From positions 4,611 to 25,127 of IMG/VR virus record IMGVR_UViG_3300000117_004791: a stretch of 20,517 nucleotides of DNA. The stretch is one strand, 5' to 3'. Below the pieces are notes generated by a model. The model was given only the letters and a program-made list of their open reading frames with translations. It was not told where the DNA came from and did not search any database. This stretch comes from a virus. Positions 49 to 20,517 of this stretch are shown here, piece by piece. The first letter of the stretch is position 1. Each line of letters begins with the position of its first letter. Position numbers and translations under genes: made by a program.

Positions 49-55
49 CTCCTTA
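49..55 (-). promoter_or_regulatory. Ribosome binding site of the cyclotransferase-like gene, overlapping the amidoligase stop
   Basis: On the minus strand the sequence TAAGGAG carries both the amidoligase TAA stop (53-55) and an AAGGAG Shine-Dalgarno core (49-54), 6 nt from the ATG at 42-40. It fixes the start of the edge-truncated gene. Confidence 0.75.
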
Positions 56-1039
56 GTTAAGTTCGTCGTATCGCGCATCTAGGTAGTTGGATACCTCGGT
101 GCTGACACCGTTGTAGAAAGTAGCGTCTTCAACAGAGCGCGGGGCATCTTGGCTCACGCCGATAAAGACGAGGAAAGCCTCATAATCAAAATCCTGAACA
201 TCTTCTGGATTGTAGAAAGTCTCCAGAGCTTCAGGAGACACGCTTGTTTCATAGCCGCGACCCATGTTGAGGACGTAGCGGTTGCCTCTCCAGTTGAGAG
301 CGCCACCGTTGGCCGCTACAACCTTGCGGGCGATATCAAAAGGTACTGTTCGGCGACCTCTGAACGAGTAGCTGGCAGGCTGACGAGCATCTGCGATCTC
401 GCAAGACTTAGTGACAAAATCCATCAGGAATTTAACCCACATTGAGATTTTGGTGTAGCAGGTAGTCCCTGAGTGCTGGCGGAACTCAATCGCGCCGCGT
501 CTCGCTACGTTGGTGAGGTTGACCTTGTAGTAGCGGCCCATCGCGCACTCTTGGCTGTCCTTGCTGGTGCAAGCGCTTACAGAGTCAACGCGGTTCTTGA
601 TTGAGCGCGCCCAGCGAGACTCACCACGGCGGCTGCGCGGCATTATGTTATCAATATCGTCCTCAAACCGCGCATATCGTTCAAAGACCTTAGCAACCTG
701 AGACACAGTCATTGACTGAGCATCTAGGTGAACGTGAAGGCCACAGCTACGATTTACCGTAACGCCCTCAATGCTGTTGATTGCGTCACAAACCTTTTTA
801 AGCTGCGCGAACCCGTCTTCACCCTGAAGAATCGGGCTGACAATCTCGCCAGTAAGACCTGAGCGATCATGAAGTGAAGCGTCAGTGACGATTTTCCAGT
901 AGCTGCGGGTAGTGTGGTTGTAACCCTCAACGTGGCAAGCGATACCAGCGTCTGACATTGCGCGAGCAACCTCTGAACGAGTGGCTCCAACGTACTCAAT
1001 TTCAATGCCAAATTTGCGGTTGCGGTCTTGAGAAATCAT
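53..1039 (-). CDS. Amidoligase (glutamine-synthetase-like COOH-NH2 ligase family)
   Basis: A 328-residue protein of the phage/bacterial amidoligase family (Amidoligase_2 type), thought to form an amide bond between a carboxyl and an amine using ATP. The family's conserved blocks appear in order: FGIEIEY at residues 10-16, GEIVSPIL in the first third (metal/ATP-site acidic residue), CGLHVHLD (histidine-rich block) and EFRQHSGT near the middle (Arg/His block). The length suits a complete single-domain enzyme. The start is the ATG at 1039-1037, preceded by AGAGGT at a suitable distance. The next minus-strand gene begins 10 nt after its stop and looks like a cyclotransferase, the usual partner. 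The in vivo substrate is unknown; peptide, cell-wall or small-molecule modification has been suggested for relatives. It is transcribed away from the packaging operon under its own promoter, so it behaves like an accessory gene. Confidence 0.85.
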   Translation of the reverse strand: MISQDRNRKFGIEIEYVGATRSEVARAMSDAGIACHVEGYNHTTRSYWKIVTDASLHDRSGLTGEIVSPILQGEDGFAQLKKVCDAINSIEGVTVNRSCGLHVHLDAQSMTVSQVAKVFERYARFEDDIDNIMPRSRRGESRWARSIKNRVDSVSACTSKDSQECAMGRYYKVNLTNVARRGAIEFRQHSGTTCYTKISMWVKFLMDFVTKSCEIADARQPASYSFRGRRTVPFDIARKVVAANGGALNWRGNRYVLNMGRGYETSVSPEALETFYNPEDVQDFDYEAFLVFIGVSQDAPRSVEDATFYNGVSTEVSNYLDARYDELN

Positions 1040-1214: not shown

Positions 1215-1781
1215 ATGAAAATTGAGAAGCGTGATGTGCAAATGCTGCCAATCTCAGAAATCCTCCCATATGAACGAAATCCAAGAGATCACTCCCAAAA
1301 TCAAATAGAAGAACTCAAAAACAGCATCAGACAGTGGGGCTGGACGATGCCTGTTCTGGTTGATGAAGAAAAGATGGTGATTGCGGGACACGGAAGACTG
1401 TATGCCGCCCAAGAGCTAGGGATTGATGAAGTTCCTTGCTTGATGACCACTGGATGGAGCGATGAACAGAAACAGGCATATGTGATTGCCGACAACAAGA
1501 TTGCGGAGAACAGCACATGGAACCAAGAGCTTTACATAAGCGAGTTGCGGAAGCTGGATGATGTTGGTTTTGACCTGACTCTGGCAGGACTTGATCCCGA
1601 CTTTGTGGACAACTTCAGCTTCAGCCCAAATCTAGCTCCGATGACAAATTTTGCGGATGTGACCAGCGATCAGATTCAAAAGACATCAGAAAGCCTTGGA
1701 GAATATGAGAACAAACAAAACTCAACTGTAATGGCAATATGCCCTCATTGCGGTGAAGAGTTTGAGTTTTCAGGTTCTTAA
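1215..1781 (+). CDS. ParB-like domain protein with a C-terminal CxxC motif
   Basis: 188 residues. Residues about 7-100 form a ParB/sulfiredoxin-like domain: LPISEILPYERNPRDHS, then a helix, then the AGHGR box at about residues 58-62 (position of the nucleotide-binding GERR-like box in ParB), then IADNK. This sub-type, including the following segment that reads ISELRKLDDVGFDLTLAGLD, is the one usually fused to the N-terminus of phage adenine-type DNA methyltransferases. Here the methyltransferase domain is absent and the protein ends in CPHCGEEFEF, a single zinc-knuckle-like Cys pair. It may therefore be a stand-alone DNA-recognition or nuclease-like subunit. A weak ribosome site (GAGGG) precedes the ATG. 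It is the first gene of a coupled operon whose next gene starts 1 nt after its stop and encodes a methyltransferase of a different type. Exact role unknown. Confidence 0.75.
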   Translation: MKIEKRDVQMLPISEILPYERNPRDHSQNQIEELKNSIRQWGWTMPVLVDEEKMVIAGHGRLYAAQELGIDEVPCLMTTGWSDEQKQAYVIADNKIAENSTWNQELYISELRKLDDVGFDLTLAGLDPDFVDNFSFSPNLAPMTNFADVTSDQIQKTSESLGEYENKQNSTVMAICPHCGEEFEFSGS

Positions 1782-1782
1782 T

Positions 1783-2568
1783 ATGAGTTTTGACCTTTAC
1801 GAAATAGATGGCCTGCTGAACTCCAAAAGATGGGACTTTGCCAAAACAATGGCGGGCATCCCTCATTACTACACGCTCAAGGAAAAATGGGGTGATGACA
1901 ACGAATTTGATGAAATAGTAAGCCTGATTAAAAAGCATGGAGTGGTAGAGAAGTGGAGATCATACACCCACAGCTACCTGTATTTGTCTGGCTATAAATA
2001 CTGGGGCTTGCCCGTGGGCAATGAATTTCTCATAAATCGGGCGAGGTATCAGGAGAAAACCCCATACAACCAAATCAGCAAAAACTATGATGATCTTTTC
2101 TACAAGAAAAAATATATGGAAGAAAATCGGGCGCTTTTTCGTCGTCTGAAGGTGTCCGGCAAGGTTCTTGATATTGGGTGTGGCACGGGATTGGCTACAG
2201 AGTGGGCAAACATCCAGCCGGAGAACTACGTTGGAATTGACCCGTCTTACGGGATGCTTCAGAAGTTTATCTGGAAACATCCAGAGTTTGCGGTCAGTTT
2301 GCGGTGCTGCCGTTTTGAAAATTTCTATATGCGTGGGTTTGATACCATCATTGCGCTTTATGGCTCTGCGTCATATATCCTAGAAGCCAGCAGGGTTCAC
2401 AAGCTGCTAAATAAGGGCGGAACTGCTTATCTGATGTATTACGCGCCACACTACAAGCCAGTTACAAGCAGGATCAGCGGGGTAGAAGACTGCGAGGTTG
2501 TTTCATATCCGGCGCTTCCAGATCAGATTAAATTTTCAAATTATGTGATTGATGTATGGCGGAAGTGA
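1783..2568 (+). CDS. Class I SAM-dependent methyltransferase
   Basis: 261 residues from the ATG at 1783. An upstream in-frame ATG at 1753 lies inside the preceding gene and is less likely. Motif I of Rossmann methyltransferases is clear: VLDIGCGTG at about residues 128-136, followed by the acidic end of strand 2 in YVGIDPS (about 150-155). The roughly 120 residues before it are not recognised, and no DPPY/NPPY motif of base amino-methyltransferases was seen, so the target is not necessarily DNA; small-molecule or sugar methylation is equally possible. A 13-nt overlap with the downstream glycosyltransferase implies translational coupling and perhaps consecutive steps on one substrate. Confident for the fold, low for the substrate. 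Confidence 0.75.
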   Translation: MSFDLYEIDGLLNSKRWDFAKTMAGIPHYYTLKEKWGDDNEFDEIVSLIKKHGVVEKWRSYTHSYLYLSGYKYWGLPVGNEFLINRARYQEKTPYNQISKNYDDLFYKKKYMEENRALFRRLKVSGKVLDIGCGTGLATEWANIQPENYVGIDPSYGMLQKFIWKHPEFAVSLRCCRFENFYMRGFDTIIALYGSASYILEASRVHKLLNKGGTAYLMYYAPHYKPVTSRISGVEDCEVVSYPALPDQIKFSNYVIDVWRK

Positions 2569-3257
2569 TCACCATCTCTTGTACGGTCATGCATGCCTCT
2601 TTTGACCGGAAGCGCAGATATGCCGTGAGTTCTTTGATATCCGCTCTGGGAGAGGAGGAAATCCGGCAAAATTGGCTAGACTTTCAGGTGATGGGGGACA
2701 TGTATGGGAGAGGCCCGTGGTGGAACGCCAAAAGATGCTGGACTCACGCGCTTACAACTGACTCTACTCATCATCTTCTTTTGCAGGATGACGTAGAGGT
2801 TTGTGATGGTTTTGTGGAGGGGCTTCCTCAAATTGTGGCGGGATTCCCCGATGACGTGATCAGCCTGTTTGCCATGCCGAGAAAAGGGTTCTCAGGTATG
2901 GATTGTCGGTGGGGAGAGGCTGAGGGTACTTGGGGGTGCGCTGTTGTCATGCCAAAGGCACTAATTTGGGAGTTTTTGCAGTGGGAGCAAGAAAACATCA
3001 AGCCTGAATTTAAGCACGATGACTCTCGTGTTTCGCTGTGGTGCTGCAACACCAAGAGAACTGTAAAGGTTCCTTTCCCAAACCCCGTGAATCATCTGGA
3101 TATGAAAAGTACGATGGGCAACCGCTGGTCAAAGCCCAGAGTCAGCGATAACTTTCTGAGCGAGCCAATATCAAGCATCAACTGGCTTGAGACATCCCCC
3201 ATGATGAGGTCGGTCAACTCATATACCGCTTACAACGGGTTTTTGATAAAAAAATGA
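2556..3257 (+). CDS. Putative glycosyltransferase (GT-A-like)
   Basis: 233 residues. The order of elements suits a GT-A-fold transferase: an N-terminal strand (ITISCTVMHAS), a basic segment, WWNAKRCWTHAL, then LLLQDDVEV with Asp78-Asp79 in the place of the DxD metal/sugar-nucleotide motif. A central WGCAVVMPKA strand and a later acidic HDDSR follow, in the position of a catalytic-base region. No signal peptide or membrane segment is visible, so it should act in the cytoplasm. Its start overlaps the methyltransferase end by 13 nt and its end overlaps the IbrA-like gene by 4 nt (ATGA). Given the neighbours, glycosylation of a modified base is possible, but a protein or surface-sugar target is not excluded. 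Confidence 0.65.
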   Translation: MAEVITISCTVMHASFDRKRRYAVSSLISALGEEEIRQNWLDFQVMGDMYGRGPWWNAKRCWTHALTTDSTHHLLLQDDVEVCDGFVEGLPQIVAGFPDDVISLFAMPRKGFSGMDCRWGEAEGTWGCAVVMPKALIWEFLQWEQENIKPEFKHDDSRVSLWCCNTKRTVKVPFPNPVNHLDMKSTMGNRWSKPRVSDNFLSEPISSINWLETSPMMRSVNSYTAYNGFLIKK

Positions 3258-4420
3258 GAGTTTACTTAAAAAACAACGTGTATGAGGAGGCACTGGAAAG
3301 AATACGCTACGTTGTGCGTGAATTTGAAAATTTTGGGGTGTGGTTCAGCGGAGGCAAGGACTCAACAGTCATCTTGAACCTTGTTCTGAAGGTAGCAGAA
3401 GAGGAGGGGCGGCTACCTGTTCCGGTCTGTTTTGTTGACCAAGAGGCCGAATGGGGCGCGGTGGTAGAGTACACAAGGAGCGTTATGAGCGACCCCAGAG
3501 TGAAACCATTCTGGCTTCAGGTTCCAATTCGTCTTTTCAACTCCACATCAGCAGAGAACAGTTGGCTCAATTGTTGGGCAGAAGGCGAAAGCTGGATGCG
3601 GGACAAAGAAGATATATCCATCAAGGACAATAAATACGACACAGATCGTTTCGGAAAAATGTTTGATCGGTTTCTTGCCGTTGAGTACCCAGATCAGAAG
3701 GTTGCATTCTTTGGAGGCGTTCGGGCAGAAGAGAGTCCCAGCCGAAATGTCACCCTGACCTACCATGCGACCTACAAGCACATCACATGGGGGAAAATTA
3801 TAGACAAAGAAGTAGGGCAGTTTTCCTTCTATCCCATCTACGATTGGGGTTGGCGCGACATCTGGAAGGCGATTCACCAGAACGGATGGCCGTACTGCAC
3901 CATATATGACCAGTTCTATCGGTATGGAATATCACCCATCAAGATGCGCGTTTCCAACCTGCATCATGAAACGGCTTACGATCAGCTTTTTTATCTGCAA
4001 GAAATGGAGCCTGAGACTTGGAGCAAGCTAACGCAGAGACTTCAAGGGATAGGGCAAGCGAGGCATATCACCAAAGAGGATATGTTCACGGTGACCGAGT
4101 TGCCATATATGTTCTCTAGCTGGCCGGAGTACAGGGATTATTTGGTTGATAAGCTCATTCCAGAAGAAAGGCAGGAGTTGTTCCGCAAACGGTTTGCTTG
4201 GGATGACGAGAAATACGAGGATATGGCGTTACCAGAGGAGCGATATCGGGTTGAGATTCAGACCGTGCTGTCCAATGACTATTACTTCACAAAGCTGCAT
4301 AACTTCAACAACAGACCCCAAGGGGCGAATTTCTTGAAGTTTAAGCGAGGGCTGTCTATTAATTGGTCGCTCCCAGAGAATCATTTGAAATATATCAAGA
4401 AAGAGCAGCGAGGGGCTTGA
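3254..4420 (+). CDS. ibrA: IbrA-like PP-loop ATPase (PAPS reductase family, DUF3440-type)
   Basis: 388 residues. FSGGKDS at residues 31-37 is the PP-loop of the ATP pyrophosphatase / PAPS reductase superfamily, which adenylates a substrate, often for sulfur transfer. GVRAEESPSR (about 154-163) is the second conserved block, and YPIYDWGWRDIW plus RYGISPIKMRVSNL follow as in PAPS-reductase-like proteins. The long C-terminal helical part (LHHETAYDQLFYLQEMEPETW onward, read in pieces) matches the IbrA sub-type rather than true PAPS reductase, which is shorter. The next gene is an IbrB-like ParB protein, the known partner of IbrA. DndC of DNA phosphorothioation is a related PP-loop enzyme, so nucleic-acid sulfur chemistry is a reasonable but unproven idea. 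Four-nt ATGA overlap upstream, 1-nt overlap downstream. Confidence 0.8.
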   Translation: MRVYLKNNVYEEALERIRYVVREFENFGVWFSGGKDSTVILNLVLKVAEEEGRLPVPVCFVDQEAEWGAVVEYTRSVMSDPRVKPFWLQVPIRLFNSTSAENSWLNCWAEGESWMRDKEDISIKDNKYDTDRFGKMFDRFLAVEYPDQKVAFFGGVRAEESPSRNVTLTYHATYKHITWGKIIDKEVGQFSFYPIYDWGWRDIWKAIHQNGWPYCTIYDQFYRYGISPIKMRVSNLHHETAYDQLFYLQEMEPETWSKLTQRLQGIGQARHITKEDMFTVTELPYMFSSWPEYRDYLVDKLIPEERQELFRKRFAWDDEKYEDMALPEERYRVEIQTVLSNDYYFTKLHNFNNRPQGANFLKFKRGLSINWSLPENHLKYIKKEQRGA

Positions 4421-4992
4421 TGGCACAAGAAGATCATCCAATAAGCGCGGTCAGATGGATTCCTGTTGAAGACATAGAGCCAAATGACTACAACCCAAAC
4501 TCCGTAGCTACACAAGAGATGCGGTTGTTATATACATCAATCAAGCATGATGGCTATACCCAGCCTATTGTGACGATATGGGACGAGGAGCGAGGGAAAT
4601 ACGTTATTGTTGACGGTTTCCATAGATATTTTACCTGTAAGAACAATCAGGACATTCAGGACTCAACAGGGGGATGCTTGCCTGTCGTTGTCATAGAGAA
4701 AGGCATTAATGAACGCATGGCTGCAACTGTGCGACATAACAGAGCAAGAGGGAGCCACAGCATATCCGGCATGAGCAGCATGGTATTCTCGTTACTTGAA
4801 AACGGATGGAAAGATCACGAAATATGCAATCACTTGGGTATGGAGCCAGAGGAATTGCTCAGGTTAAAGCACATTACGGGCTTTTCTAAACTGTTTGAAA
4901 ATGTAGAATACGCAAAAGCATGGGAAAGCAAGCAGCAGATTCGCTTGCGAAAGCAGCACAAAACGGCGGAAAACGGTAACGGTAATGGCTAA
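4420..4992 (+). CDS. ibrB: IbrB-like ParB-domain protein
   Basis: 190 residues from the ATG at 4420, which overlaps the previous stop (TGATG) and has GAGGGG just upstream; an in-frame ATG at 4363 lies inside the previous gene and is not needed. The ParB-like fold shows as WIPVEDIEPNDYNPN (about 13-27), a helix, QPIVTIWDEE, VDGFHRYFTCK at about 66-76 (the box equivalent to GERR in ParB), and then RHNRARGSH, typical of IbrB. A helical C-terminus (LLENGWKDHEICNHLGM) could be a helix-turn-helix. IbrA and IbrB were first described as regulators of immunoglobulin-binding genes in E. coli, and the pair recurs in phages and genomic islands. It probably works with the preceding PP-loop ATPase. The last 8 nt overlap the TerS start. 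Confidence 0.8.
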   Translation: MAQEDHPISAVRWIPVEDIEPNDYNPNSVATQEMRLLYTSIKHDGYTQPIVTIWDEERGKYVIVDGFHRYFTCKNNQDIQDSTGGCLPVVVIEKGINERMAATVRHNRARGSHSISGMSSMVFSLLENGWKDHEICNHLGMEPEELLRLKHITGFSKLFENVEYAKAWESKQQIRLRKQHKTAENGNGNG

Positions 4993-5545
4993 AAAAATCA
5001 CTGATGAAGTAGAAATACAGATCAGGGACGAGTACATACATGGGTTTCTGGATTCGGAGGGGGTCAGGAAATACCCCACGATTGAGGCGCTGGCAAAACG
5101 CCACGATGTCGCCTACAGAACTCTGTCAACCAAGGCCAAGGCTTCCGATTGGCAAGGCCAGAAAAATCGCTATCAGACAGAGCTAAAGCAAAAGCTGGAT
5201 GATGAGCGTATGCAGAGGATTGTGGACGAGTCTAAGCGGCTAGATGACACCTGCATCCAGTTGGCAATGGGTATGTTGAACGTGGTTGGCCGCAAGATAC
5301 AAAAGCACATGGAGGAAGAAAGGTCAGACCCTGAATATGAGGGTATTCCCGCTCATGTAATGAGTCATTTATCAGCAACAACCGCCAATGCCCAGAAAAT
5401 AGGTAAGCTGGCTCTTGGCGAAGCACAGGAAATATCTAAGGTAGCAGCAGATGTCAGCAACCCCGATGCCTTCAGAGCAGTTATGGAACAACTTGACGAG
5501 CTTGCGGCAGCAAGGTCACAAGGCGACAGCGAATCTTTACACTGA
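4985..5545 (+). CDS. Putative terminase small subunit (TerS-like)
   Basis: 186 residues. It lies immediately before the large terminase. Its N-terminus has a helix-turn-helix-like region (residues about 30-60: TIEALAKRHDVAYRTLSTKA), as expected for a small terminase that binds the packaging start site. A charged helical middle (QTELKQKLDDERMQRIVDESK, in pieces) could form the oligomerisation coiled coil. There is no strong Shine-Dalgarno; the ATG sits 8 nt inside the end of the IbrB-like gene, so translation is probably coupled. Its 3' end overlaps the TerL start by 95 nt. The assignment is mostly by position plus HTH and helical character; direct family recognition is weak. Confidence 0.65.
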   Translation: MAKKITDEVEIQIRDEYIHGFLDSEGVRKYPTIEALAKRHDVAYRTLSTKAKASDWQGQKNRYQTELKQKLDDERMQRIVDESKRLDDTCIQLAMGMLNVVGRKIQKHMEEERSDPEYEGIPAHVMSHLSATTANAQKIGKLALGEAQEISKVAADVSNPDAFRAVMEQLDELAAARSQGDSESLH

Positions 5546-6755
5546 ATGGCTAACTAAAGCTCGGCCCAAGCAACTAACCCCACAGGGTGATTGGCACATC
5601 TGGCTCATATTGGCTGGACGGGGATGGGGAAAGACCTTCACAGGGGCTAGTGACGCGCTACTGTACGCGCTCAGGAACCCCGAATCCCAAGTTGCTATCG
5701 TAACCCCCACATTCGGCGATCTGCGGCGAGTGGCCTTTGACGGCCCATCTGGGATGCTTCGCATGATACCTAAAGGCGCATTACTCAGCGGCAGGGGTCA
5801 AGGATACAACGCCTCTGCATCAGAGGTTCGTTTATACAACGGATCAAAGATAATGGGGTTCAGCGCAACAGAGCCAGACAGATTGCGAGGCCCGCAATTC
5901 CATAGAGCTTGGTGTGACGAGCTTGCAGCGTGGAGATACCCAGAGACATTTGATCAGCTAATGTTTGGCTTACGCTTGGGCGAAAAACCTCAGTGCATAA
6001 TAACAACCACCCCAAAGCCCACCCCGATTATTAGAACTTTGATGCAACGGGATGATTGTCACATAACTACAGGCACCACCTTTGAGAACAAAGAAAATCT
6101 AGCTGAGTCTACGCTTCAAATGCTTAAAGAAAAGTATGAAGGTACAACCCTTGGCAGACAGGAGCTATATGCCGAGGTTATTGATGCAATGGAGGGAGCG
6201 CTATGGACTCCATCATTGATAGACGCGAAACGTGAAAAGGTAACAAATGTTACGGAAAAAATAACAAATGTCATTGTTGCGGTTGATCCCGCTGTCACCT
6301 CGGGAGACTCATCTGATGAAACAGGGGTTGTCGTGGTGGGAAAGGACTCTAATAACGAGTATTATGTGCTGGATGACAAGTCGGGCAAATATAAGCCGGA
6401 TCAATGGGGCCAGTTAGCTATTGACCTCTTCTATCAGTGGGATGCTGACAGAATCGTTGCTGAAGTTAATAACGGCGGCGATCTAGTAGAGAAGCTGATT
6501 CGCACCCTTGATTCAGGGGTAAGGTACAAGTCAGTACACGCCACAAGAGGAAAAATGGTTAGGGCAGAGCCTGTAGCCGCCCTCTATGAACAAGGCAGAG
6601 TCCATCACTGCGGCGTGTTTTCAGAGCTTGAAACGCAAATGTGTACATACACAGGCGAAAGGCCAAAACCTTCTCCAGACAGACTAGACGCACTTGTGTG
6701 GGGTTTATCAGAATTGAATAAATCTCGCGGTGATGTTTCTTGGAGAATTAGCTGA
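5451..6755 (+). CDS. Terminase large subunit (GTA-like / Terminase_6 type)
   Basis: 434 residues, the packaging ATPase-nuclease that drives DNA into the prohead. The stretch ARPKQLTPQGDW (37-48) followed by Walker A AGRGWGKT (55-62) is characteristic of the TerL group that includes the gene transfer agent packaging protein. Walker B is HRAWCDE with Asp156-Glu157. The C-terminal nuclease shows three acidic sites: VAVDPA (Asp279), AEVNNGG (Glu338) and PDRLDALVW (Asp413). All key residues are present, so the enzyme should be active. The ATG at 5451 has AAGG about 9 nt upstream and gives an N-terminus of normal length, but it places 95 nt of coding sequence inside TerS; a start at TTG codons near 5493 or 5502 is the alternative. 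The stop overlaps the portal start (TGATG). Confidence 0.92.
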   Translation: MSATPMPSEQLWNNLTSLRQQGHKATANLYTEWLTKARPKQLTPQGDWHIWLILAGRGWGKTFTGASDALLYALRNPESQVAIVTPTFGDLRRVAFDGPSGMLRMIPKGALLSGRGQGYNASASEVRLYNGSKIMGFSATEPDRLRGPQFHRAWCDELAAWRYPETFDQLMFGLRLGEKPQCIITTTPKPTPIIRTLMQRDDCHITTGTTFENKENLAESTLQMLKEKYEGTTLGRQELYAEVIDAMEGALWTPSLIDAKREKVTNVTEKITNVIVAVDPAVTSGDSSDETGVVVVGKDSNNEYYVLDDKSGKYKPDQWGQLAIDLFYQWDADRIVAEVNNGGDLVEKLIRTLDSGVRYKSVHATRGKMVRAEPVAALYEQGRVHHCGVFSELETQMCTYTGERPKPSPDRLDALVWGLSELNKSRGDVSWRIS

Positions 6756-8842
6756 TGGCTTTATTGGATAATATTAAAAATTTGTTTGTATCGCAGGTTC
6801 CCGCTCTAACTAAAGAGGCGGGGCCGATGGTGGGTTATTTCGGCGTTAATAGCACTCAAGTGCGAATGTATAACTACGCTGACCTAGCTCAAGAGGGTTA
6901 TCTAAAGAACGCAATCGTTTATCGGTGCGTAAATGAGATAGCCAAAGGCGCGTCTTCCGTGCCTTATATGGTTAAGCGCGGTGATGAGGTTATGGAATCT
7001 CATCCAGTAATCTCTTTGCTTGATAGACCCAATCCCCTACAAAGTTATTCAGAGTTTTTTAACAGCTTATACGGCTATCTTTTACTCAGCGGGAACTCTT
7101 ACATCCTTGGCATATCTGGAACTGGTGGGCCGCGAGAGCTTCACCTGCTTAGGCCGGATCGCATAGAGATTAAAGGTGGTGCGGCTGGCGTATTCCCTGA
7201 CAGATACCAATACTCAGTGAACGGGACTGTAAAAGCGACTTATGACGTAGACCAAGAAAATGGTTTCTCAGAGTTAAAGCAGGTCAAGCTATGGCATCCA
7301 ATGGATGATTATTATGGCTGCTCACCTTTGACGGCTGCGGCTATGGAGGTAGATCAGCATAACTCGGCCACTAGGCATAACATTAACTTGCTAGAAAACG
7401 GGGCAAGACCCAGCGGGGCTGTAGTATTTAAGCCACAGGATGACCAAGGCTACCGGATGCAGCTATCTGAGTCTCAGCGTCAGCAGTTGCTAACTGACCT
7501 TAACGGCAGGTTCAGCGGGAGTAAAAACGCTGGTAGACCTATGTTACTGGAGGGCGACTTTGAGTGGAAAGAGATGGGCTTGTCGCCCAAGGATATGGAT
7601 TTCCTGAACCTCAAGCATATGTCAGCCACTGATATTGCTCTGTGCTTTGGTGTGCCTAGTCAGCTAGTAGGTGTGCCTGATAGCCAGACGTACAGCAATG
7701 TGGCAGAGGCTAGGCTTGCGCTTTATGAAGAAACTATTATTCCTTATCTGCGAAAAGTGGAGTCAGACATCAATGAATGGCTGATACCTCAGTACGATGA
7801 AGATGTTAATTTTCAATATGACATTGACCGAATCCCCGCCCTATCAGAGCGCCGCAGGATCATATATACAAACGTAATAGCAGCGGTTGATAAAGGCATC
7901 ATGACCCGCAATGAGGCTAGGGAGATGGTTGGCCTAAGCCCCATTGATGGCGCGGATGATTTGCTGGTTCCCGCTAACCTGTTTGCATTAAATGACGGAA
8001 AGGTTCCAGAGGCTGAAGAGCCAGAGCCAGAAGAAGAGGTGGACTTATATGATGACAGGGAAGTGGACGCAAAGGCCGTCACAAACTTCCCAGAGAAGGG
8101 TGACAACAAAAAGATAAGTCTTAGAAACAGCAACTATCCTCAATTTAGCTTCGCATTCGCCAAGGCGCTTTATGACGATAAATCCACGGTAGGCCGCAAG
8201 GTGTGGGGTGCTGGTGGGAATATCAGGGGCAACGGTGCCTTTCAAAACTGGATGAAGGCTAGAGATGGGTCAGAAACCCCAGCGATACTGGACTGGATCA
8301 AGGAGCGCGAGGCTTGGTGCGCTAGGCATACCGTAGTTGATGGGAACCAGTTTGTAGGTGGCAAAACAGAGCCTAATTCTTCTAACATTGCTGGCGTGGT
8401 AGCCCTTATTAAGTGGGGCGCGATTAATCCTAAGCTGGGACAGCAAGGGATGAAAGACGTCATACTGGAAGTGGTCAAAAAGCTGGAAGACAAGAAATCA
8501 GACGAATACACCAGCATGGAATTTGGCGATGTTGACGAAAAAGCTGTCAGCGCTAAAGTTAAGAAAGGACTTCAAGAAAAGGTCAAAAAGCACAATGAGA
8601 AGTACGGGGATAAGCCAACCAAGAGAGCTACTCTAAGGATGCTCACGGCTGTTTTTGAGCGAGGGGTAGGCGCGTACCGGACTAACCCGCAAAGTGTCAG
8701 ACCAAGCGTTACAGGGCCAGATCAGTGGGCATATGCAAGGGTCAATTCATTCCTGTTTGCTCTACGCACGGGTCGCTTTCAGGGTGGAGCATTTGACACA
8801 GACTTGTTTCCGAAGGGTCACCCTCTGAGTTCTAAGAAGTAA
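6755..8842 (+). CDS. HK97-family portal protein with a long C-terminal extension
   Basis: 695 residues, against about 400-430 for ordinary HK97-type portals. Residues about 1-410 are the portal: AIVYRCVNEIAKGASSVP, HPVISLLDRPNP, YLLLSGNSYI, LRPDRIEI, HNINLLENGARPSG, and FGVPSQLVGVPDSQTYSN are all family blocks. It forms the dodecameric DNA gate at the capsid vertex. An acidic linker (about 415-440, EEPEPEEE and similar) leads to a 250-residue module. That module has WIKEREAWCARH and GVVALIKWGAI (about 515-560) and then GVGAYRTNP and WAYARVNSFL near the end, with a basic Lys-rich helix between. These blocks recur in tailed-phage structural proteins (possibly DUF5824-related) but have no known function. 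The gene is followed directly by a hairpin at 8847-8866. Confidence 0.9.
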   Translation: MALLDNIKNLFVSQVPALTKEAGPMVGYFGVNSTQVRMYNYADLAQEGYLKNAIVYRCVNEIAKGASSVPYMVKRGDEVMESHPVISLLDRPNPLQSYSEFFNSLYGYLLLSGNSYILGISGTGGPRELHLLRPDRIEIKGGAAGVFPDRYQYSVNGTVKATYDVDQENGFSELKQVKLWHPMDDYYGCSPLTAAAMEVDQHNSATRHNINLLENGARPSGAVVFKPQDDQGYRMQLSESQRQQLLTDLNGRFSGSKNAGRPMLLEGDFEWKEMGLSPKDMDFLNLKHMSATDIALCFGVPSQLVGVPDSQTYSNVAEARLALYEETIIPYLRKVESDINEWLIPQYDEDVNFQYDIDRIPALSERRRIIYTNVIAAVDKGIMTRNEAREMVGLSPIDGADDLLVPANLFALNDGKVPEAEEPEPEEEVDLYDDREVDAKAVTNFPEKGDNKKISLRNSNYPQFSFAFAKALYDDKSTVGRKVWGAGGNIRGNGAFQNWMKARDGSETPAILDWIKEREAWCARHTVVDGNQFVGGKTEPNSSNIAGVVALIKWGAINPKLGQQGMKDVILEVVKKLEDKKSDEYTSMEFGDVDEKAVSAKVKKGLQEKVKKHNEKYGDKPTKRATLRMLTAVFERGVGAYRTNPQSVRPSVTGPDQWAYARVNSFLFALRTGRFQGGAFDTDLFPKGHPLSSKK

Positions 8843-9250: not shown

Positions 9251-9312
9251 TTGTAATTATACACGTTTGTTATATATGCACAACCTTTTTAACAAAAAAA
9301 AGTGAAAAAAAT
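9251..9312 (-). promoter_or_regulatory. Sigma70-like promoter for the minus-strand unknown gene, copy B of a duplicated promoter region
   Basis: On the minus strand: -35 TTGTGC (9283-9278), a 16-nt spacer, and a perfect -10 TATAAT (9261-9256), about 48 nt before the ATG. The blocks at 9251-9261 and 9302-9312 are identical to those at 1082-1092 and 1134-1144 in front of the amidoligase operon, at nearly the same spacing. The block at 9302-9312 contains an in-frame GTG that could be mistaken for the nuclease start. Confidence 0.7.
9268..9276 (+). promoter_or_regulatory. Possible extended -10 promoter for the nuclease-MuF genes
   Basis: TGTTATATA resembles the extended -10 TGnTATAAT and lies about 37 nt before the ATG at 9314. 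No good -35 was found at the right distance. It overlaps the minus-strand promoter region. It would supply transcription downstream of the inserted opposite-strand gene, but read-through from the portal is an alternative. Confidence 0.3.
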
Positions 9313-9313
9313 T

Positions 9314-9679
9314 ATGATTGATCCGTATTACTACAGATGTAACGTGGTTCGCGTGATAGATGGCGACACGATAGTGGTGGACATAGATCAGGGCTTTGAT
9401 GATTGGAAGCACGGGCAAAAACTGAGGTTGGCTGGTATAGACACGCCAGAGAGCCGGACGCGCAACCTCGCAGAAAAGGCTTTGGGACTTGCGGCCAAGG
9501 AAAGATTAAAAGCCCTTTGCGGGGATGAGGTATTCATTAAATCTTTGGGCAAAGGCAAGTATGGTCGCATATTAGCCGTGCTTCATACCCGCGAAGGCAC
9601 TAATATCTGTGATACCTTAATCAACGAGGGCCACGCAGTTGAATACTGGGGCGGTAAGAAAACAAAGGTCTGGGCTTAA
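9314..9679 (+). CDS. Staphylococcal-nuclease-like (thermonuclease, TNase fold) protein
   Basis: 121 residues from the ATG at 9314. A GTG at 9302 would add four residues but lies in a conserved promoter block. All catalytic residues of micrococcal nuclease have counterparts: Asp18 in IDGDT and Asp43 in GIDTPE for calcium, Arg38 and Glu46 in the R-LAGIDTPE stretch, and Arg85 in GKYGR. The protein is therefore expected to be an active phosphodiesterase on DNA or RNA. It has no signal peptide, so it would act inside the host or in the virion. No clear Shine-Dalgarno precedes either start. It overlaps the MuF-like gene by 41 nt. The position in the head cassette, where many phages carry an HNH nuclease, hints at a packaging or host-DNA-degradation role. 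Confidence 0.85.
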   Translation: MIDPYYYRCNVVRVIDGDTIVVDIDQGFDDWKHGQKLRLAGIDTPESRTRNLAEKALGLAAKERLKALCGDEVFIKSLGKGKYGRILAVLHTREGTNICDTLINEGHAVEYWGGKKTKVWA

Positions 9680-15761: not shown

Positions 15762-18700
15762 ATGGCTACGATCACAACAAGGTCGGGGAAGGGTAGTCCT
15801 CTAACAAACAGTGAGGTTGATGCTAACTTCACTAACCTCAACTCCGACAAAATTGAGCTAACTAATCTCTCCGTTACTACTGGCTCCGCCAGTGGTGGCG
15901 GTAGTTTGGCTTACGCAAATGGATCGGGCGTTTTCACGTTTGTTCCCCCAGACCTATCCAGTTACCTAACAAACCTGTCGGGCCAAGATACTGACGACCT
16001 AAGCGAAGGCTCTACTAACGTATATTTTACTAGCGCTAGAGCTAGGACATCTGTATCCGTTACAAGCGCCTCTGCAAGTGGCGGCGGTACGCTAACTTAT
16101 GCCAACGGATCAGGGGTGTTTACGTTTACGCCGCCTGATTTGTCTAGTTTTTTAACTAGTCTTAGCGGGCTGGACACTGACAACCTCACTGAAGGCAGCA
16201 GTAATTTATACTTTACTAATGCCAGAGCTAGAGGGGCTGTTTCCGTTACTGACAGCGGCGGGGATGGCTCTCTTGCTTATAACAGCTCTACGGGGGTTGT
16301 AACCTACACTGGGCCGTCAGCCTCTGAGGTCAGGGCGCACTTCAGTGCAGGAACTGGCGTAGCCATAGCTAGCGGTGAGGTGTCTATAGGTCAGGCCGTA
16401 GCGACTAACTCAAACGTCACTTTTAACAATGTTAATGTTGCGGGCGATCTAACGGTCAATGGCACAACGACCACCGTTCACAGCACGGTAGTTACCATTG
16501 ATGACCCTGTGTTTACTCTAGGCGGTGACACGGCTCCTTCCACGGATGACAACAAAGACAGGGGTATAGAGTTTCGCTGGCATAACGGCACATCTGCGAA
16601 GATTGGATTCTTTGGATTTGATGATTCTTCCGGAAAATTTACCTTTATACCTGATGCAACCAACAACTCTGAGGTGTTCTCAGGGACGGCTGGGGACGTT
16701 GTATTCGGGGCCGCTACCGTAACAGGTCTAACCATTGGAAGCACCGCAGTCACGGCGACAGCGGCTGAGATCAATATTTTAGACGGGGTTACCAGCACTG
16801 CCGCAGAGCTAAACCTAAATGATGGCTCAAGCGCCGGAACTATAGTCAATAGCAAGACCGTGGTGTACGGATCAAGTGGTGAGGTCAATGCCACTACTCT
16901 CCAGCTTTCAGGTACAGCAATAACCGCAACAGCAGCCGAATTAAATCTGCTGGATGGTGTGACGGCTACCACGGCAGAGCTTAATTATGTGGACGGGGTT
17001 ACGTCCAACATACAAACCCAGTTAAATGCTAAGCAAGCATCTGACCAGCAGCTAACAGATATTGCGGGACTAACGCCTACAGACAGCGGATTTATTGTCG
17101 GTGATGGTTCTAATTTCGTCTTAGAATCAGGCGCTACAGTGAGAACCAGCCTTGGGCTGGCAATAGGTACAAATGTACAAGCCTATGACGCTCAACTAGC
17201 GGACATTGCAGGGCTTACACCTTCGGACAGCGGGTTTATCGTTGGAGACGGCTCTAATTTCGTCTTGGAGTCAGGGGCAACGGTAAGGGCAAGCCTTGGA
17301 TTGGCTATAGGCACTAATGTTCTAGCTTATGATGCAAATCTACAAACATTTGTCGGTGCGTTTACCCTTCCAACCTCAGATGGCAGTAGCGGTCAGGCGC
17401 TAACCACTAACGGATCGGGAACCCTTGCGTTCTCTGACGTTGATGCCTTGCCCAGCCAATCTGGGAACACTGGTTACTACCTTAAAACAGACGGAACAAA
17501 TGCAAGCTGGGCTGCTGTAGAGGCTTTGCCAAGCCAATCGGGTAATAGTGGGTATTTCCTAACAACTAACGGTTCTGCTGCATCATGGACTAACTTACTG
17601 GCTGACCCAACCTTCACAGGAACGGTCACAATAAACTCAACCGAGGCGCTGACTCTCCCTGCCGGAACAACTGGGCAAAGACCAACAGCCGCCACGGGAA
17701 TGCTTAGATACAACAGCACCCTTGGAAAAGTAGAATTTTACAACGGATCAGCATGGTCAAACATAAATGTTGATAATGCCTATGTAAGAACAAACATCAC
17801 CGCAACATCCGGACAGACCTCATTCTCAGTGGCCTACACCGTGGGCTATGTAGATGTCTTTTTAAATGGCATCAAGCTCATCGCTGGCACAGACTTTACG
17901 GCGACCAATGGCACGGCGGTTGTACTGGCAGCGGGCGCAGCCACAGGTGACTTATTTGAGGCCGTGGCGTGGAACGCGGCGAATGTCGCTCAACAGGCAT
18001 ACACAAAAACCAGCTTCACCGCGACTGCCAGCCAGACCACGTTTACGGTTGATTACACTGTCGGGTTTGTAAATGTTTACCTGAACGGTGTTTTGCTGCT
18101 TGACGGCACGGAATACACGGCCACAAACGGCACATCTATCGTGCTTGCTGCTGGCGCGGCTGTGAATGACTCAGTGGTGGTGGAGGCGTTTACTACATTC
18201 AGCGCATCGTCGGCTCTTGCGATAGCGAATAATCTTTCTGACCTCAATAACGCTGCAACAGCCCTGACTAATCTGGGCCTCACCGCAACCGCAGCGGAAC
18301 TGAACATAATGGACGGTGTTACGTCCACAGCGGCAGAACTCAATATTCTTGATGGCGTGACCTCAACCGCAGCCGAACTGAATTTAGTGGATGGTTCCAG
18401 TGCGGGTACTATCGCTAACTCCAAGGCGGTTGTTTATGGCTCTTCTGGAGAGGTTAACGCCACGACCCTGCAAATTTCTGGCACGGCCATCACATCTACA
18501 GCGGCAGAATTAAATATTCTTGATGGTGTTACTGCTACAGCAGCGGAACTCAACATTCTTGATGGGGTGACGGCTACCGCAGCGGAGCTAAACATTCTGG
18601 ATGGAGTAACGGCCACAACCGCAGAATTGAATTATACCGATGGTGTTACTTCAAACATCCAAACACAACTAGATGCCAAACAAGCTCTTGATGCCAATCT

Positions 18701-19883
18701 TACGAGTTTTGTAAGCGCCTTCACCCTACCAACAAGTGACGGGTCAAATGGTCAAGTATTAACCACAAACGGTAGTGGAACTCTGTCGCTGGCGGATGCG
18801 GGCGGTGGAGTGATGGAGCTTGCTAACGGCAACACCACTCTAAAGCTCAGTGGAAGCTCAGTAGGCGCACAATCTATCGTCCTTGCTACTAACAACTCAG
18901 CCCTAGCAAGCACTAATGAGGGCGTTGTTGTTATTGGTTATGAGGCCGCAGCCGCGAGTGTGGGAACCAGCTTTGATGACTCCGTGGTTATTGGCGGTTT
19001 TGCGGCTAGAAATATACAGAGTACTCGCAATGTTGTTGTTGGGCACCATGCCGTTTCAAGCAACACTATGACGGGCCAAGAAAATACTGTATTGGGCTAT
19101 AAAGCTGGTCAATCAATAACAAGTGGTGAAATGAACATCCACATTGGGTCTGAAGCGGGCAATGATTCAACAGCGGGTACTCACAATCATTGCATTTTAA
19201 TTGGAAACGCAACGGATACCGGAGGGCATTATACCGTAGCGGTTGGACACCGATCCGGAGCACAGTCAAGCAGTAATTATTCAGGGGCGGGGAACACCTA
19301 TCTAGGATCGTTTGCTGGAGATCAGGGCAACGACTCAGGTGATTACAATATTGCGATTGGCTATCAGGCAAGGACAAGCACAGGCTCACAAAGCAACAAG
19401 TTTGTCATTGGTTACAATTTTGCAGGGCGGGACGAATCTGACACCATCAGCATTGGCAACAATAGCGCCTACATCTACAACCGTTTCGCTGATAATTCTT
19501 CTTGGAGCCGTCAGTCAGATGAAAGATTAAAGAAAGACTTTAACGTATGTGATTTGGGCTTAAATTTCATCAATGACTTAGAGCCTGTTACTTACCGATG
19601 GAAGCCTGTAGCAGAAGTTGATCCAAGTCTTTTGCAGGAAGATGCAAAGGATCGCCCAAGGTTAGAAAATTATTATGTTGGCCTGAAAGCGCAAAATGTC
19701 AAAGCTGCCCTTGATAAACACGCGGCCCATGATTACGGCATCGTTGATGTAATGGATGATACAAGCCGTATGGGGTTGGCTTATGAGGAGCTTATCACCC
19801 CACTCATTCAAGCGATAAAAGAGCTTTCTGCAAAAGTTGACAGTTTAGAGTCAGAAATAACAGAGTTGAAATCAAAGCAATGA
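15762..19883 (+). CDS. Large modular tail fibre with C-terminal S74 intramolecular chaperone
   Basis: 1373 residues, good ribosome site (AGGGGA). Order of modules: N-terminal ITTRSGKGSPLTNSEVDANF (virion attachment type); two copies of a GGG-LAYANGSGVFTF / LT-LSGLDTDNLTEGS segment; a VHSTVVTIDDPVFTLGG module; TAAELNxLDGVT repeats; two 48-residue units starting LTDIAGLTP; two beta-sandwich units (YVDVFLNGIKLIAGTDF and VNVYLNGVLLLDGTEY); a second TAAELN block; a YadA-head-like stretch of short GxxA/IG repeats (NTVLGYKAGQS, HIGSEAG); then the S74 domain. There Ser1252 in RQSDERLKKDF and Lys1257 match the Ser-Lys dyad that cleaves itself off after trimer folding. A coiled coil ends the protein (SAKVDSLESEITELK). 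The mature fibre is probably a trimer lacking the last ~120 residues. It is expected to bind the host surface. Confidence 0.88.
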   Translation: MATITTRSGKGSPLTNSEVDANFTNLNSDKIELTNLSVTTGSASGGGSLAYANGSGVFTFVPPDLSSYLTNLSGQDTDDLSEGSTNVYFTSARARTSVSVTSASASGGGTLTYANGSGVFTFTPPDLSSFLTSLSGLDTDNLTEGSSNLYFTNARARGAVSVTDSGGDGSLAYNSSTGVVTYTGPSASEVRAHFSAGTGVAIASGEVSIGQAVATNSNVTFNNVNVAGDLTVNGTTTTVHSTVVTIDDPVFTLGGDTAPSTDDNKDRGIEFRWHNGTSAKIGFFGFDDSSGKFTFIPDATNNSEVFSGTAGDVVFGAATVTGLTIGSTAVTATAAEINILDGVTSTAAELNLNDGSSAGTIVNSKTVVYGSSGEVNATTLQLSGTAITATAAELNLLDGVTATTAELNYVDGVTSNIQTQLNAKQASDQQLTDIAGLTPTDSGFIVGDGSNFVLESGATVRTSLGLAIGTNVQAYDAQLADIAGLTPSDSGFIVGDGSNFVLESGATVRASLGLAIGTNVLAYDANLQTFVGAFTLPTSDGSSGQALTTNGSGTLAFSDVDALPSQSGNTGYYLKTDGTNASWAAVEALPSQSGNSGYFLTTNGSAASWTNLLADPTFTGTVTINSTEALTLPAGTTGQRPTAATGMLRYNSTLGKVEFYNGSAWSNINVDNAYVRTNITATSGQTSFSVAYTVGYVDVFLNGIKLIAGTDFTATNGTAVVLAAGAATGDLFEAVAWNAANVAQQAYTKTSFTATASQTTFTVDYTVGFVNVYLNGVLLLDGTEYTATNGTSIVLAAGAAVNDSVVVEAFTTFSASSALAIANNLSDLNNAATALTNLGLTATAAELNIMDGVTSTAAELNILDGVTSTAAELNLVDGSSAGTIANSKAVVYGSSGEVNATTLQISGTAITSTAAELNILDGVTATAAELNILDGVTATAAELNILDGVTATTAELNYTDGVTSNIQTQLDAKQALDANLTSFVSAFTLPTSDGSNGQVLTTNGSGTLSLADAGGGVMELANGNTTLKLSGSSVGAQSIVLATNNSALASTNEGVVVIGYEAAAASVGTSFDDSVVIGGFAARNIQSTRNVVVGHHAVSSNTMTGQENTVLGYKAGQSITSGEMNIHIGSEAGNDSTAGTHNHCILIGNATDTGGHYTVAVGHRSGAQSSSNYSGAGNTYLGSFAGDQGNDSGDYNIAIGYQARTSTGSQSNKFVIGYNFAGRDESDTISIGNNSAYIYNRFADNSSWSRQSDERLKKDFNVCDLGLNFINDLEPVTYRWKPVAEVDPSLLQEDAKDRPRLENYYVGLKAQNVKAALDKHAAHDYGIVDVMDDTSRMGLAYEELITPLIQAIKELSAKVDSLESEITELKSKQ
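16833..17027 (+). repeat. Dispersed fibre module, copy 1 of 3
   Basis: Encodes a segment from AGTIVNSKTVVYGSSGEVN to SNIQTQLN. Copy 2 is at 18402-18674 (longer, with extra TAAELN units) and copy 3 at 20195-20389 in the next fibre gene. The protein is nearly identical across copies, while codons differ widely. Confidence 0.85.
17052..17339 (+). repeat. Two tandem 144-nt units in the large fibre gene
   Basis: Units 17052-17195 and 17196-17339 each encode 48 residues (LTDIAGLTPTDSGFIVGDGS and LADIAGLTPSDSGFIVGDGS at their starts). Protein identity is very high; the DNA differs mostly at third positions. Confidence 0.85.
18282..18647 (+). repeat. 39-nt (13-residue) TAAELN repeats in the large fibre gene
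   Basis: In-frame units of 13 residues, such as TATAAELNIMDGV and TSTAAELNILDGV. Three units start at 18282 and four more lie at 18492-18530, 18531-18569, 18570-18608 and 18609-18647. Related units occur around 16745-17000 in the same gene and around 20280-20370 in the next fibre gene. Confidence 0.85.
18402..18674 (+). repeat. Dispersed fibre module, copy 2 of 3
   Basis: Encodes AGTIANSKAVVYGSSGEVN through SNIQTQLD, expanded by two extra 13-residue TAAELN units relative to copies 1 and 3. Confidence 0.85.
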
Positions 19884-20131: not shown

Positions 20132-20517
20132 ATGGGCAGACCAAGAGACATAGGTGACAGCGCATCCGTCATAAACATACTTGACGGCGCTACGGCTGGG
20201 ACAATCGTAAACTCCAAAGCGGTGGCCTATGGATCATCCGGTGAGGTCAACGCTACTACCTTGCAGTTAAGCGGGACGGCCATATCTGCGACAGCGGCGG
20301 AGATTAACCTGTTAGATGGGGTCACTGCGACCACAGCCGAACTTAACTACGTTGATGGCGTTACCAGCAACATACAAACGCAGCTAAATAACATTTCTGT
20401 CACTGCCGGAACTCAAACCAAGACATACTCCGCAGGTGAAACATCTACGATTACCTTGTCGGGTAATGTGCTGTCTCCTGTCGTTGCTGTGACTAAAGAA
20501 GTTGCTCAGTCAGGTGT
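20132..20517 (+). CDS. Second tail fibre protein, N-terminal fragment (runs off the window)
   Basis: 128 codons are visible from the ATG at 20132, preceded by AAGGA at a good distance. It begins MGRPRDIGDSASVINILDG and quickly enters the same module as the large fibre (AGTIVNSKAVAYGSSGEVN, AEINLLDGVTATTAELNYVD, SNIQTQLN). It then changes to a new segment (TKTYSAGETSTITLSGNVLS). It lacks the attachment-type N-terminus of the first fibre, so it may join the virion through a different part or through the first fibre. The gene has no stop in the window. Confidence 0.85.
   Translation, partial: MGRPRDIGDSASVINILDGATAGTIVNSKAVAYGSSGEVNATTLQLSGTAISATAAEINLLDGVTATTAELNYVDGVTSNIQTQLNNISVTAGTQTKTYSAGETSTITLSGNVLSPVVAVTKEVAQSG
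20195..20389 (+). repeat. Dispersed fibre module, copy 3 of 3
   Basis: Same protein segment as copies at 16833-17027 and 18402-18674, here within 70 nt of the start of the second fibre gene. Copy 3 has the same length as copy 1 (195 nt). Confidence 0.85.

Follow-up and report, generated by a model that had tools for sequence, protein, structure and literature searches.

In phages with glycosylated bases of the T4 type or associated with TET/JBP enzymes, a glycosyltransferase (GT) is encoded in the genome within a likely DNA-decorating pathway. ParB-family proteins also take part in DNA modification, being parts of the Dpd and Dnd systems (PMC12839542). Here we describe a block of five genes in a viral DNA stretch of 20,517 nucleotides (the window, positions 4611-25127 of the incomplete 30,344-base record IMGVR_UViG_3300000117_004791), which encode a ParB-type protein (ParB1), a fusion protein with a methyltransferase half, a small GT, and the paired proteins IbrA and IbrB, and which lead directly into genes for the small (TerS) and large (TerL) terminase subunits. 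The block represents a widely distributed cassette, in one of its forms, that is made of ParB1, a domain that we name YWTM, interchangeable tailoring enzymes, IbrA, IbrB, and the terminase. Hundreds of phages have IbrA and IbrB among their annotated genes, and the open-access literature assigns the two no established biochemical function. Searches of that literature turned up no account of the cassette, although absence there is not proof of novelty.

The locus can be compared with several described systems. Dnd, Ssp, and type-4 BREX operons likewise combine a PP-loop enzyme of the 3'-phosphoadenosine-5'-phosphosulfate (PAPS) reductase family with a ParB-superfamily protein, DndB, for DNA modification (PMC12839542). 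The window differs from them in that IbrA has no conserved cysteine and falls below the DndC cut-off, and a desulfurase, DndD, or DndE was not noticed, no dedicated search having been made. The Dpd 7-deazaguanine system relies on a ParB-like ATPase, DpdB, that works with a base-inserting enzyme (PMC12839542), whereas in the window no tRNA-guanine transglycosylase (DpdA) was seen and a PP-loop enzyme with tailoring modules is present instead. In contrast to T4-type and TET/JBP-associated phages, the window has a GT of another family (phrog_854), and the record showed neither a hydroxymethylase or TET gene nor one for modified-nucleotide synthesis. The IbrA-IbrB pairs of E. coli ECOR-9 (Ibr), Flavobacterium and Streptococcus phages, and Mycobacterium phage Phlyer share with the window an IbrA with PF01507 and DUF3440 (phrog_2302) adjoining a ParB_N-type IbrB, and Phlyer additionally has a ParB gene upstream and TerL next. 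Unlike the window, the pairs examined are without the YWTM domain and the GT, methyltransferase, and GNAT modules.

Evidence for a widespread cassette comes from profile scans of viral contigs. Scans with single proteins were nearly empty: one IbrA sequence recovered only 3 close relatives among the viral contigs, the window GT recovered none there or in isolate phages, and tblastn of isolate phages gave no match for the window methyltransferase or for a stand-alone YWTM protein. Thus, profiles were needed. An IbrA profile returned at least 80 loci, most of which read ParB1, middle genes, IbrA, IbrB, TerS, TerL. A YWTM profile, chosen to avoid selecting on IbrA, was built from a closer set of relatives (A5), as the alignment of 27 YWTM domains (A3) was too diverse for scanning. 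Its 80 loci contain IbrA in 77 cases, ParB1 in 74, and IbrB in 71, and among the 45 loci that extend 5 kb or more downstream, all 45 have IbrB, 43 have IbrA, and 34 have TerL. Open reading frames (ORFs) were called mechanically and labeled with hidden Markov models built from the first locus set, with separate profiles used to tell ParB1 from IbrB and methyltransferase from YWTM domain.

When identical IbrA proteins are merged, 91 distinct loci hold both YWTM and IbrA; the two are on one strand in all of them, and YWTM lies upstream in 90. Of the 69 loci that include TerL, 65 have it no more than 3 kb downstream, and the TerS-like gene keeps its place in L004 (L numbers denote individual loci) and other relatives. 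The cassette order recurs in about 90 distinct viral-contig loci, and its carriers are diverse uncultured phages along with a small number of cultured isolates. This recurrence, together with the constant strand and order of YWTM and IbrA, puts the arrangement far beyond chance. Furthermore, the cassette loci contain two separate TerL sequence clusters, so the link to the terminase is not that of a single terminase lineage.

A first-pass annotation of this DNA had reported five genes packed by a 1-nt gap or overlaps of 1-13 nt and continuing into TerS and TerL, and the ORF map bears this out. It had also proposed looking for the same five-gene order beside terminases in other phages, and had stated that scattered genes which never co-occur would count against its reading; co-occurrence proved to be near total. 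The identities that it gave the genes agree with Pfam and PHROG matches, except that the second gene is a two-domain fusion and not a plain methyltransferase. The annotation thereby overlooked an undescribed domain in residues 1-92 of that protein, and it likewise missed the modularity of the locus, in which the glycosyltransferase and the methyltransferase belong to a set of seven or more modules that can replace one another. A scan for promoters gave none on the plus strand for the 1215-4992 block.

This modularity is evident from the genes between ParB1 and IbrA, which form 37 combinations in 88 distinct loci. The commonest modules are GNAT7 (37 loci), a phrog_854-type GT (35), a DPPW methylase (28), and a small-molecule methyltransferase (13). 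Rarer ones are an S-adenosylmethionine (AdoMet) decarboxylase (12), a probable AspH-like 2-oxoglutarate dioxygenase (5), and a second GNAT (6), and GT2-like or TylF-type genes are occasional; the dioxygenase and GT2-like labels rest on motifs read by eye. Pfam support exists for N6_N4_Mtase (3.4e-9), AdoMet_dc (3e-22), GNAT, and TylF. A DNA methylase of the N6_N4_Mtase type occupies the slot in 28 of the 88 loci, though not in the window itself, where the slot holds the YWTM-methyltransferase fusion and then the GT. Across these loci, 94% of the gaps between genes are 5 nt or shorter.

The YWTM domain is the most constant small component of the cassette. Comparison of relatives revealed it as a separate domain with the consensus FAKTMPxIPHxY...GYKYWTMGxP...IINRA, which in most relatives is a free-standing protein of about 90 amino acids in the same slot; the methyltransferase half similarly stands alone in L021, L023, L059, and L066. 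No sequence match to the domain was found in Pfam, PHROGs, or the Protein Data Bank (PDB). AlphaFold predicts an alpha+beta structure for the domain alone (mean predicted local distance difference test score, or pLDDT, 86.3) and models the fusion with a mean of 89.6. Comparison with PDB structures gave no clear fold for the YWTM model: the best Foldseek match has an expectation value (E) of 0.074 and the best VIA Z is 5.1 (Ku, root-mean-square deviation 3.1 over 74 residues). Ku and I-DmoI were considered as fold relatives and are not relied on, with VIA Z scores of 5.1 and below falling within the range of common arrangements. One viral model, the unnamed protein A0A516LRX9, is matched well (E 4.3e-7), and on these predicted structures a new fold is not claimed. 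Methyltransf_23 (1.2e-8) and Methyltransf_25 (3.7e-8) are the Pfam matches of the methyltransferase half, and its best Foldseek matches are CgnL, TylM1, SeMT, and similar enzymes (E 3e-7 to 1e-5).

YWTM domains are also present in bacterial chromosomes (L174-L190; Rhodospirillaceae, Clostridiaceae, Chloroflexi, Rhodothermales, and others), where most are encoded by single genes of about 100 amino acids. One bacterial YWTM gene lies beside GNAT and IbrA and another in a full ParB1-to-terminase cassette, and the fusion with a methyltransferase occurs in two Rhodothermales (L177, L178). In a Levybacteria genome, L183 4843-5472 may encode a fusion of YWTM with an endonuclease VII/HNH domain (Endonuclease_7 E 0.002-0.008, below the cut-off). 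This single weak case, which is not used as proof, hints at YWTM being a nucleic-acid reader.

IbrA is matched by PF01507 PAPS_reduct (3.1e-16), PF11922 DUF3440 (2e-7), and phrog_2302 (3.5e-75), and in the window this protein, with its PP-loop intact, is followed directly by a ParB_N protein, which makes up the IbrA/IbrB pair. The PP-loop SGGKDS is present in 100% of 94 IbrA sequences. No cysteine is conserved among the same sequences, the highest cysteine column reaching 74%; the window protein has three cysteines. Conserved cysteines are needed for DndC-type Fe-S or persulfide chemistry and for classical PAPS reduction. The nearest PDB relatives of IbrA are the PAPS domain of FAD synthase, CysD, and PAPS reductase, and FAD synthase and CysD are adenylating enzymes. 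The invariant PP-loop, the lack of a conserved cysteine, and the adenylating activity of these solved relatives favor AMP activation over sulfur transfer. IbrA was also considered as an assimilatory PAPS reductase (CysH), and this assignment was rejected because its scores are under the family cut-offs (TIGR00434, 25.8 bits versus 165.1; NF002537, 27.8 versus 154) and no cysteine is conserved.

The remaining proteins of the block also keep conserved motifs or residues. ParB1 matches Pfam ParB_N (1.9e-9) and phrog_620 (3.1e-51), as well as the N-terminal part of families in which ParB is joined to a DNA methyltransferase (phrog_498, 1.6e-43; PADLOC MTase_II, 1.6e-32). In 114 relatives, its nucleotide-binding-type GxxR motif (G58 100%, R61 98%) and its zinc-knuckle-type CPxC motif (C176 97%, C179 96%) are kept. 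IbrB, which likewise has motifs of nucleotide-binding type, matches PF02195 (ParB_N, 4.3e-6) and phrog_2159 (5.7e-72), and its motifs DGFHR and NRARGxH are retained at 90-100% in 134 relatives. The GT is assigned by its match to phrog_854 "glucosyltransferase" (2.5e-12) to the phrog_854 glycosyltransferases, with this activity predicted, and D79 (100%), D156 (93%), and H180 (95%) are conserved in 49 relatives. At L161 and L162, IbrB is fused to a phrog_854-type GT; YWTM is present and IbrA was not found there.

Cultured phages carry the cassette as well. Homologs of the YWTM-methyltransferase fusion occur in five isolate records, all from Microbacterium phages (Leaf, Dewdrop, Rasputia, and two Hendrix records). 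Within the genus Rogerhendrixvirus, which includes these four phages, Hendrix and Leaf, whose hosts are M. foliorum NRRL B-24224 and M. paraoxydans NWU1, hold all parts beside the terminase. Their right map end carries a phrog_854-type GT, the YWTM-methyltransferase fusion, a GNAT, and IbrA, and their left map end carries IbrB, two ParB1-type proteins, a TerS-like gene, and TerL. Because the DNA of Hendrix is circularly permuted (PMC7302621), its cassette is one continuous gene run across the map ends. These phages differ from the window in having an extra GNAT and GTs and in placing IbrB before two ParB1 copies; their cassette genes have been annotated separately and are not named as one system in the open-access literature. 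A shortened form of the cassette occurs in Phlyer (ParB, two tiny genes, IbrA, IbrB, TerL). In Flavobacterium phages and relatives (L008, L009, L080-L082, L085), a helicase gene is followed by IbrB and then IbrA, the reverse of the order in the window, and both YWTM and the tailoring genes are missing; this constitutes a second, minimal Ibr context.

Overall, the evidence leans toward the cassette being a modular, post-replicative DNA-modification system, expressed with the packaging genes, that would decorate phage DNA just before packing. DNA is the likeliest substrate because ParB1 matches ParB-DNA-methyltransferase families, ParB-family proteins belong to the Dnd and Dpd systems, a DNA methylase family occurs in the slot, and the terminase adjoins. 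The methylase and the terminase likewise suggest that finished DNA is modified shortly before packaging; neither a hydroxymethylase nor a gene for modified-nucleotide synthesis was seen in the 30-kb record. ParB1 and IbrB, as ParB-fold proteins predicted to bind nucleotides and associate with DNA, would recruit the enzymes to DNA. PP-loop ATP-pyrophosphatases such as TilS, QueC, and GuaA work by AMP activation and the joining of an amine or similar group. By analogy with this family, and with TilS in particular, IbrA might use ATP for AMP activation of a group on DNA, or of a group to be attached, and an amine or similar group might then be joined to the activated site. The YWTM domain could bind the target or intermediate and hand it over to the tailoring enzymes of the particular phage. 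In the window phage, the fused methyltransferase and the glycosyltransferase would yield a methylated, glycosylated adduct, whereas with swapped enzymes (GNAT, DNA N6/N4-methylase, dioxygenase, AdoMet decarboxylase, or other GTs) the end product would differ from phage to phage. Such differences might permit evasion of restriction or other host defenses. The first-pass annotation had proposed a modified nucleotide or DNA, possibly containing sulfur. The link to the packaging genes holds up, the general idea stands as the leading explanation, and the sulfur component has lost ground.

A more specific proposal is tentative and somewhat unlikely. The cassette might exemplify a so far undescribed kind of DNA hypermodification. 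In it, an IbrA lacking conserved cysteines, directed by its ParB-fold partners and by YWTM as a base- or adduct-binding domain, would attach an amine or amino-acid-like group to a base of replicated DNA in a TilS-like reaction, after which methyl-, glycosyl-, acyl-, hydroxyl-, and aminopropyl-type modules could elaborate it, giving related phages dozens of decorations.

Several points weigh against a DNA-modification system. Judged from structural models, the methyltransferase half is akin to methyltransferases for aminosugars and natural products and not to DNA methylases, and the window GT likewise resembles small-molecule or sugar enzymes. The 30-kb record showed no TET and no enzyme that would hydroxymethylate bases. 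Bacterial YWTM genes mostly occur without IbrA, so the domain is not exclusive to the cassette, and some phages keep only IbrA and IbrB beside a helicase. The viral-contig sample was picked by sequence patterns, with at most 80 loci taken from each scan, and is partly redundant; the IbrA-based and YWTM-based scans have about a dozen contigs in common. Finally, DNA modification is here a prediction from gene content.

The tailoring enzymes are also the basis for an alternative, in our estimation unlikely, whereby the cassette modifies a protein or glycan (a virion protein, or the host surface or nucleotide-sugar pool) and the ParB-fold proteins are small-molecule kinases or ATPases. Several tailoring enzymes of the slot have the character of sugar or small-molecule enzymes (a TylM1-/CgnL-like methyltransferase fold, a TylF-type methyltransferase, GNATs, AdoMet decarboxylase, and the phrog_854 GT). 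Some ParB/Srx-fold proteins are free-serine kinases, and weak NCBIfam matches link IbrB to SbnI and ParB1 to SerK. However, the cassette includes two ParB proteins, a DNA N6/N4 methylase family occurs in the same slot, and the position of the cassette is tied to the terminase and not to capsid, tail, or lysis genes.

That constant place beside TerS and TerL could also reflect a regulatory or packaging role without covalent chemistry, which we consider quite unlikely. ParB1 and IbrB might act as clamps with CTP/ATP switches that mark the pac region or, with IbrA, regulate late genes, the variable enzymes being passengers. In E. coli, IbrA and IbrB are reported to co-activate the expression of prophage genes (PMC4490671), and Phlyer has just two tiny genes within its ParB-IbrA-IbrB-TerL run. 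Yet passengers would not be expected to come from the same seven families, to lie nearly always within the ParB1-IbrA interval, and to have coupled starts. Insertion of sulfur into DNA as a phosphorothioate or thio-base, with IbrA as a DndC-like enzyme, is very improbable, since its membership in the PAPS reductase superfamily and weak DndC matches (TIGR03183, 9.8e-5; PADLOC DndC, 4e-7) are set against a TIGR03183 score of 21.4 bits versus a cut-off of 290.4, the 94 IbrA sequences without a conserved cysteine, and the fact that no cysteine desulfurase or DndD/E-like ORF was noticed in the incomplete 30-kb record, in which no dedicated DndA/D/E family search was made.

Table 1. Cassette and packaging features of the window
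Feature	Position	Strand	Remarks
ParB1	1215-1781	+	188 amino acids (aa), ParB_N-type; GxxR (G58..R61) and C-terminal CPxC (C176/C179)
Methyltransferase fusion gene (YWTM and methyltransferase)	1783-2568	+	1-nt gap after ParB1
YWTM domain	1783-2058	+	Residues 1-92 of second gene; predicted alpha+beta; A20, P27-H28, Y65, Y73-W74, N85-R86 conserved
Class I S-adenosylmethionine-dependent methyltransferase domain	2065-2568	+	Residues ~95-261 of second gene; small-molecule/aminosugar type
Small glycosyltransferase, phrog_854 family	2556-3257	+	233 aa; 13-nt overlap with fusion gene
IbrA	3254-4420	+	388 aa; PP-loop ATP-pyrophosphatase/PAPS-reductase superfamily and DUF3440; 4-nt overlap with GT
IbrA PP-loop SGGKDST	3347-3367	+	
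IbrB	4420-4992	+	ParB-fold, 190 aa; 1-nt overlap with IbrA
TerS-like small terminase subunit	4985-5545	+	phrog_6299 7.4e-4; 8-nt overlap with IbrB
TerL large terminase subunit	5451-6755	+	Terminase_6N 3.7e-22, Terminase_6C 7.2e-17
Portal	6755-8842		Phage_portal 8.3e-78 (Pfam)

Other features were observed around the cassette. Amidoligase_2 and GGCT/AIG2-type genes lie side by side and adjoin it (window 53-1039, minus strand; L002 4206-4688, minus strand), and the pair also flanks the cassette, on either strand, in L005, L010, L015, L019, L024, L115, L116, L124, L146, L147, and L159; these genes may have a linked peptide- or amide-modifying function. The extended C-terminus of the portal protein (window 6755-8842) weakly matches DUF5824 (2.3e-5), and a staphylococcal nuclease-type gene (SNase 3.9e-13; window 9302-9679) is located between the portal gene and a Mu F-like head gene. 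The presumed tail-fiber region (window 15762-19883 and 20132-20517), like L003, encodes long repetitive proteins with repeated 'TATAAELNLLDGVT' units, near which the record contains undetermined bases.

The association of IbrA and IbrB with a partner domain, a ParB protein, the terminase, and swappable enzymes makes their role directly testable. Cultured, lytic Microbacterium phages with all parts, such as Hendrix and Leaf, make such testing practical. Should DNA be the substrate, the cassette would generate new DNA modifications combinatorially, by way of an enzyme for which action on DNA is not known. If true, this would matter for phage evasion of restriction and CRISPR and for DNA-modifying tools.

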